From Thermocladium modestius JCM 10088 (lineage in GTDB: Archaea > Thermoproteota > Thermoprotei > Thermoproteales > Thermocladiaceae): a DNA stretch of 64,000 nt. Location of the stretch: contig BBBF01000005.1 of NCBI GenBank assembly GCA_001315925.1, forward strand, positions 1 through 64,000. Reading direction: 5' to 3'. Below are positions 42,226 to 43,486 of this stretch, piece after piece; within the stretch, counting starts at the first letter, position 1; every line of letters begins with the position of its first letter. The position numbers and the translations under genes are program-made. The notes beneath the pieces were generated by a model that was not told where the DNA came from, did no database searches, and worked only from the letters and a program-made list of their open reading frames with translations.

Positions 42226-42678
42226 ATGAATGTGAGAGACTTGGGAGCGTCTATCGCATTCACTATGGTGATATTATTGATTGCCATCCTATTGTTAAGG
42301 GCTGTCGGCAGTAGCCCGGCTGAAATAATGGTTATAGCGCTGGTGGAGGTATTGTTTGGACTAGTGATTGGTTATTTCATGCTCGGCAGGTTCGCTGGCC
42401 TCAGGTCTAGGCTAGGCGAGCTAACGCTTAGGTATAGGCTGCTCCTCAGGAATGGGTTCTTCATAGGATCCGGCGACAAGGCAGTAAGCGGTGATCTGGC
42501 CATGATAGATTACTACATGAAACGATATTACAGCTGGGTGAAATATAAGGTAGAGGTTCATGGCTATGATGCAGTGCTGTATGCGAGCCTCGATTTGGAT
42601 TCCGGCATTAGGCTAATAAATTCGCTCAACAGTGAATTATCCGTTCTTAACATAAATGAATATAGAACTTTCTCCTAA
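42226..42678 (+). CDS. Two-TM membrane protein with soluble tail
   Basis: Unrecognised 150-residue protein. MNVRDLGASIAF starts at ATG 42226, after the TATA-like GATTTAATAC; an in-frame ATG at 42211 is open. Two TM helices (MVILLIAILLLRAVG, MVIALVEVLFGLVIGYFML) are followed by a cytoplasmic domain with RYRLLLRNGFFIGSGDK and SWVKYKVEVHGYDAVLYASL. Intact, no long G/C run. Confidence 0.6.
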   Translation: MNVRDLGASIAFTMVILLIAILLLRAVGSSPAEIMVIALVEVLFGLVIGYFMLGRFAGLRSRLGELTLRYRLLLRNGFFIGSGDKAVSGDLAMIDYYMKRYYSWVKYKVEVHGYDAVLYASLDLDSGIRLINSLNSELSVLNINEYRTFS

Positions 42679-42725: not shown

Positions 42726-42777
42726 CGTCAGATGTAATACCACTCCTCATCTCTCAGTGGTCTGGTGATCATCACTG
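42726..42777 (-). ncRNA. Candidate C/D box sRNA 1
   Basis: On the minus strand, box C GTGATGA (42775-42769) is followed by 11 bases, box D' CTGA, a short spacer, a C'-like AGATGA, a 15-base guide, and box D CTGA (42731-42728). Total length about 50, typical of archaeal C/D sRNAs. Guide 1 (TCACCAGACCA) would match UGGUCUGGUGA; guide 2 ends GTGGTATTACAT, of which nine bases match the 16S rRNA segment GUAAUACCA, a weak match. Confidence 0.55.
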
Positions 42778-42978: not shown

Positions 42979-43033
42979 GATCAGCGTTCAAATCCCTCAG
43001 TCACAGCTCAGTTAGTGATCTATCATCACTGAT
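42979..43033 (-). ncRNA. C/D box sRNA 2, guide for tRNA C56 methylation
   Basis: On the minus strand, box C GTGATGA (43029-43023), 11-base guide 1, D' CTGA (43011-43008), C'-like TGTGACTGA, guide 2 GGGATTTGAACG (42996-42985), and D CTGA (42984-42981). Flanks GATCA and TCAATC could pair. Guide 2 is exactly complementary to a tRNA T-arm, CGTTCAAATCCC, and the base opposite the fifth guide position from box D is the C of TTC, that is C56. Pyrobaculum is known to use such an sRNP for Cm56 in place of the protein enzyme aTrm56. Confidence 0.75.
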
Positions 43034-43108
43034 CTTTTAATTTAATTTAAATCACAAGTGCCGCAAGAGATGCTATCTGGGGGGGCCAGCGCTGGGCTGC
43101 CTCCATGG

Positions 43109-43486
43109 CTATGGGGCCATGAATCTCAGTGCCTTCGGTTGACCCTCCTCGCTCACTATGACCACCGCATTATCGTCGAACGCGACCCAAGTTCCATCAT
43201 GTCTCCTAAACGGTCTCCTTTGTCTCACAACTATGGCCCTTAGCTTTTGCTTTCTGACCTCTGGCCTCCCCTCAACAACGCTCACCACTATCATATCGCC
43301 GACGCCGGCGTTATGTATCTTCCTGTGAACCCCCCCATGTGATCTATTGCCTATTACGCTTATGACCCTGGCCACCTTAGCTCCGCTGTTGTCCACCACT
43401 GATACTAAACTATTGGCAAAAACGCCGGGAGTCACGTGGTATCTATGAGACACTCCCACTGTCTTAGGGCCTCCTCTCTTCGCCAT
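43109..43486 (-). CDS. rpl14p: Ribosomal protein uL14 (L14P)
   Basis: Intact 125-residue large-subunit protein. [20 protein letters not shown], then [40 protein letters not shown] and [16 protein letters not shown] are the L14 blocks. ATG at 43486. One G7 gives SHGGVHRK, where one Gly may be extra in a variable loop. No other ribosomal genes adjoin, unlike the usual archaeal operon. Two sRNAs lie directly downstream on the same strand and may be transcribed with it. Confidence 0.93.

Follow-up and report, generated by a model that had tools for sequence, protein, structure and literature searches.

A box C/D sRNA next to the uL14 gene

In most archaea the 2′-O-methyl group at C56 of tRNA (Cm56) is provided by the protein aTrm56, whereas Pyrobaculum aerophilum uses a C/D sRNP (PMC7912444, PMC6313347). 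The locus described here, from the hot-spring archaeon Thermocladium modestius, raises the question of whether an RNA guide takes the place of the protein in this organism as well, where it should methylate one fixed base of nearly all tRNAs. A preliminary reading made from the sequence alone had placed a C/D box sRNA at 42979–43033 of the window (the whole 64 kb stretch of DNA that was analysed). We confirmed this element and positioned it on the minus strand at 42981–43029, with 49 nt from box C to box D. It sits in the gap between the gene for ribosomal protein uL14 and a short plus-strand open frame ending at 42678, and the features of the region are as follows (basis of each assignment, or remark, in brackets):

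43109–43486, minus strand: ribosomal protein uL14 gene, upstream of the sRNA and reading towards it (Pfam PF00238, E-value 7e-28)
43035–43051, minus strand: A/T-rich stretch resembling a TATA element, ahead of box C (sequence)
43023–43029, minus strand: box C, GTGATGA (sequence)
43012–43022, minus strand: D′ guide TAGATCACTAA, 11 nt (varies among genera)
43008–43011, minus strand: box D′, CTGA (sequence)
42997–43004, minus strand: degenerate box C′ GTGACTGA (comparison with homologues)
42985–42996, minus strand: D guide GGGATTTGAACG, 12 nt (pairing with tRNA genes)
42981–42984, minus strand: box D, CTGA (sequence)

This arrangement is that of an archaeal C/D sRNA, in which RTGATGA and CTGA flank an RNA of 45–60 nt, and internal D′ and C′ boxes separated by a short spacer (3 nt in this case) accompany guides of 10–12 nt. 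Box C′ is degenerate, and reads GTGAGTGA in the Caldivirga homologue. The layout TGATGA-N-CTGA-N-CTGA, which the sRNA occupies at 42981–43028, was found twice in the 64 kb window versus 0.08 times expected from shuffled sequence, and none of 100 shuffled windows contained two such layouts. The guide together with its box D (GGATTTGAACGCTGA) has a single exact occurrence in the 64 kb. At the gathering threshold of Rfam no match was obtained for the sRNA, and a relaxed threshold returned only sub-threshold C/D families; sR2, sR3, sR5 and snoPyro_CD share the general C/D layout and their matches span the whole element, but none attains the gathering score, and the definitions of these families rely mostly on other guides. 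The A/T-rich stretch at 43035–43051 is possibly the sRNA's own promoter; in the homologues, too, A/T-rich TATA-like stretches lie ahead of box C.

A further box C/D sRNA was observed ∼200 bases downstream (42728–42775, minus strand), with the layout GTGATGA TCACCAGACCA CTGA GAG ATGAGGA GTGGTATTACAT CTGA. Both of its guides recur in the other two Thermocladium genomes and, judging by the conserved 515-region sequence, it looks like a putative double guide for helix 18 of the 16S rRNA.

Pairing of the guide with tRNAs

Pairing was assessed against the 37 tRNA genes found in the Thermocladium genome. In every one of these, the guide base at −5 from box D (G, 42989) lies opposite C56 of the T-loop, with guide bases −2 to −11 pairing with tRNA positions 53–62. 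This ten-base core is perfect for 30 of the 37 genes, whilst six others have one G-U pair and the last has a G-U pair plus a mismatch. As tRNA base 52 is G in all 37 genes, guide base −1 (also G) is unpaired with every tRNA found, and 11 of the 12 guide bases pair in 30 genes. The initial claim of exact complementarity between the 12-base guide and a T-arm was thus upheld, for mature tRNA, over 11 bases (in those 30 tRNAs) but not for base −1. Its use of the fifth base rule to arrive at C56 agreed with the organism's own tRNA genes, the comparison it had itself proposed as a check: C56 is in register in 37/37, and the ten-base core is perfect in 30/37. In box C/D RNP structures the base adjoining box D normally lies outside the guide–target duplex (the archaeal geometry), and the mismatch at −1 therefore does not weaken the assignment of C56 as target. 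We also observed that base −1 is G in 42/42 homologues, despite the lack of pairing with G52 of the Thermocladium tRNAs. For the D′ guide TAGATCACTAA no target was found.

Elsewhere in the genome the exact 12-mer CGTTCAAATCCC occurs only within an apparent intron-containing pre-tRNA, on contig C17. Its assignment to the T-arm of a tRNA-Val was rejected, as it lies ∼330 bases from that tRNA and on the opposite strand. The tRNA-like gene concerned (∼1480–1640 of locus L002, minus strand) was missed by both ARAGORN and the Rfam tRNA scan, and apparently contains at least two introns, of which one interrupts the T-arm immediately ahead of GTTCAAATCCC.

We consider it very likely that the sRNA is a C/D guide for the 2′-O-methyl group at tRNA C56, acting in place of an absent aTrm56. 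The D guide would pair with the T-arm of essentially all cellular tRNAs, and the fifth base from box D would select C56; the sRNA, together with L7Ae, Nop5 and fibrillarin, would then direct 2′-O-methylation of this base, such that the sRNP would substitute for the protein methylase. Transcription of the sRNA, assembly of the sRNP and methylation of C56 are steps that we infer from the sequence.

Fibrillarin was found in each of the three Thermocladium genomes, with its frame interrupted in the genome that carries our locus. Compared with Thermocladium sp. UBA166, these interruptions coincide for the most part with G or C runs that are longer or otherwise changed. Across the whole window, G/C runs of length 7 number 26 per 10 kb versus 0.7 in relatives. 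The distortion is systematic and extends to the organism's own genome, the fibrillarin locus being one instance: runs of exactly 7 or 8 are in sharp excess, runs of 4 are too few and none reaches 9, and A/T runs are without comparable distortion. Such a pattern is indicative of an artefact of sequencing or assembly and not of a dead fibrillarin gene, and the frame break is most likely the result of homopolymer errors. The same artefact probably explains the low completeness score of the assembly (48 %). As for the sRNA, its longest G/C run is no more than 3, and it is untouched by errors of this kind.

Guide and Trm56 across the clade

Trm56 (PF01994) was not found in the 48 % complete T. modestius genome; because of this score, the argument from Trm56 absence rests on relatives. 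It was likewise found in none of the 44 genomes of two families, which comprise Thermocladium, Caldivirga, Vulcanisaeta, Pyrobaculum, Thermoproteus and two other genera. The guide pattern GGATTTGAACNCNGA was detected in 42 of these 44 genomes (a reversed control pattern gave one match), and the two guide-negative genomes are 54 and 76 % complete. A third family, represented by one genome, has Trm56 and lacks the guide; this genome has 5 % contamination, and its Trm56 is located on a contig of >230 kb. As such, the prediction made at the outset held: aTrm56 was absent from the organism's own genome, from the rest of its genus and family, and also from the family that contains Pyrobaculum and Thermoproteus. 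The further proposal of an RNA-guided route throughout the Thermoproteales applied to two of the three families sampled in the order but not to the third, whose single genome keeps Trm56 without a guide; the exchange is therefore not strictly order-wide.

At the level of the phylum, sampled as genomes ≥ 90 % complete plus our own, Trm56 is present in 368 of 397 genomes. The premise of the sequence-only reading, that most archaea use aTrm56 with Pyrobaculum as the known sRNP exception, agrees with the reviews, which give P. aerophilum as the sRNP user. By elimination, 25 of the 29 Trm56-negative genomes belong to the two families and four are scattered elsewhere. These four (G116, G128, G159 and G173), near-complete genomes apparently without Trm56, contain no convincing C56 guide of this pattern: three have no guide-pattern match at all, and the match in G173 was rejected for want of a convincing C box. 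Trm56 may be missing from them through gaps in the assemblies, or because C56 is reached by another route.

With a single mismatch tolerated anywhere in the 15 bases, the one position to vary among the accepted homologues is the second of box D (CAGA, CGGA or CCGA in 10 of the 42). When 17 representatives were aligned, no change was seen in GGATTTGAACGC or in the GA of box D, whilst the other guide and most of the remaining sequence varied. A strict TGATGA pattern misses Vulcanisaeta and most members of Pyrobaculum and Thermoproteus (as which we take genus g7), because the C boxes there are TGAAGA, TGACGA or TGAGGA; a guide-centred pattern recovers them. Additionally, box C (at its fifth base) and box D (at its second) covary among the homologues, in that those with TGATGA have CTGA in 15/15 cases, and CAGA, CGGA and CCGA are found only alongside TGAAGA or TGACGA. 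These two bases face each other in the kink-turn.

None of 16 Trm56-bearing relatives contains the guide; the sole single-mismatch match among them (G050) has an altered core base and no boxes, and was rejected. Matches in G020 (contig C4), G019 (contig C39), G024 and G014 (contig C1) have an altered core or box D, or no C box, and were not counted. Two TTCGAAC matches in genus g8 were set aside, both genomes having a regular guide elsewhere, and bacterial contigs returned by the genome-contig scan were taken as chance matches.

The sRNA adjoins the uL14 gene in both Thermocladium and Caldivirga, and is found at one further location each in genus g3 and in Vulcanisaeta. Most Pyrobaculum and Thermoproteus genomes have it at a common fourth location, near a gene that, from a reading of its sequence alone, we take to be phosphoribosyltransferase-like. 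With the same guide present at no fewer than four genomic locations, the sRNA gene has therefore moved or re-formed whilst the guide remained unchanged. The anticorrelation between Trm56 and the guide may represent a single ancestral event. It is likely that a common ancestor of the Pyrobaculum/Thermoproteus family and the Thermocladium/Caldivirga/Vulcanisaeta family exchanged the near-universal Trm56 for an RNA guide, which has since been indispensable, its core fixed as the rest of the sRNA diverged and came to occupy at least four locations.

Three other explanations were weighed against these data. Complementarity to tRNA would also be displayed by a tRNA-derived fragment or pseudogene, antisense to a T-arm by descent and bearing C and D boxes by coincidence. 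No tRNA gene was found at the locus, however, and the similarity to tRNA is confined to the guide; moreover, the C/D boxes exceed chance expectation, and the guide and its register are kept in 42 genomes at differing locations, leaving this origin with a probability close to negligible. We regard as very unlikely the idea that the element is a genuine C/D sRNA whose main target lies elsewhere, reached through the D′ guide or, in some other RNA, through the D guide, with the T-arm match being secondary. Two guides are common among C/D sRNAs and the D′ guide may have an rRNA target, but it is the D guide that is invariant across genera and the D′ guide that is variable, and the presence of the guide coincides with the absence of Trm56. 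In addition, it is usual for one of the guides of a tRNA-targeting sRNA to lack a target (PMC7994747).

The guide could also be a redundant helper in a clade where an unrecognised protein methylates C56, given that our protein search covered the Trm56 family and that other SPOUT or Rossmann methylases are possible. In disagreement with this, the strict conservation of the core suggests that the guide matters, and an sRNP is the reported route in P. aerophilum, a member of this clade (PMC7912444); we thus view such redundancy as extremely unlikely. An RNA guide for C56 in place of aTrm56 is the explanation that we prefer.

Comparison with known systems

The C/D sRNP for Cm56 in P. aerophilum is credited to Renalier et al. 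(2005), as cited in PMC7912444, PMC6313347 and PMC5372725, and in reviews up to 2021 this organism is the sole named user of RNA-guided C56 methylation. We found no literature extending the mechanism to Caldivirga, Vulcanisaeta or Thermocladium, although Renalier et al. (2005) and Lui (2018) may do so in part. The mechanism itself has thus already been published for P. aerophilum, whilst its clade-wide extent appears to be new. The exchange is apparently fixed across two families, including the cultured Vulcanisaeta distributa and Pyrobaculum oguniense, and offers a clean case for studying the takeover of a protein enzyme's role by an RNA guide, with the Trm56-retaining third family as a point of comparison.

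The P. aerophilum sRNP and the Thermocladium sRNA have in common the target base, the class of RNA and the absence of Trm56; they differ in genus and family, in genomic location, and in their D′ guide and C box. The Pyrobaculum genome that we take to be that of P. aerophilum contains a homologue with an identical ten-base core and box D. Compared with aTrm56 (PF01994, COG1303), the SPOUT methylase for tRNA C56, the expected product is the same, namely Cm56; aTrm56, however, is a protein enzyme that is absent from the clade, whereas the Thermocladium system is an RNA guide.
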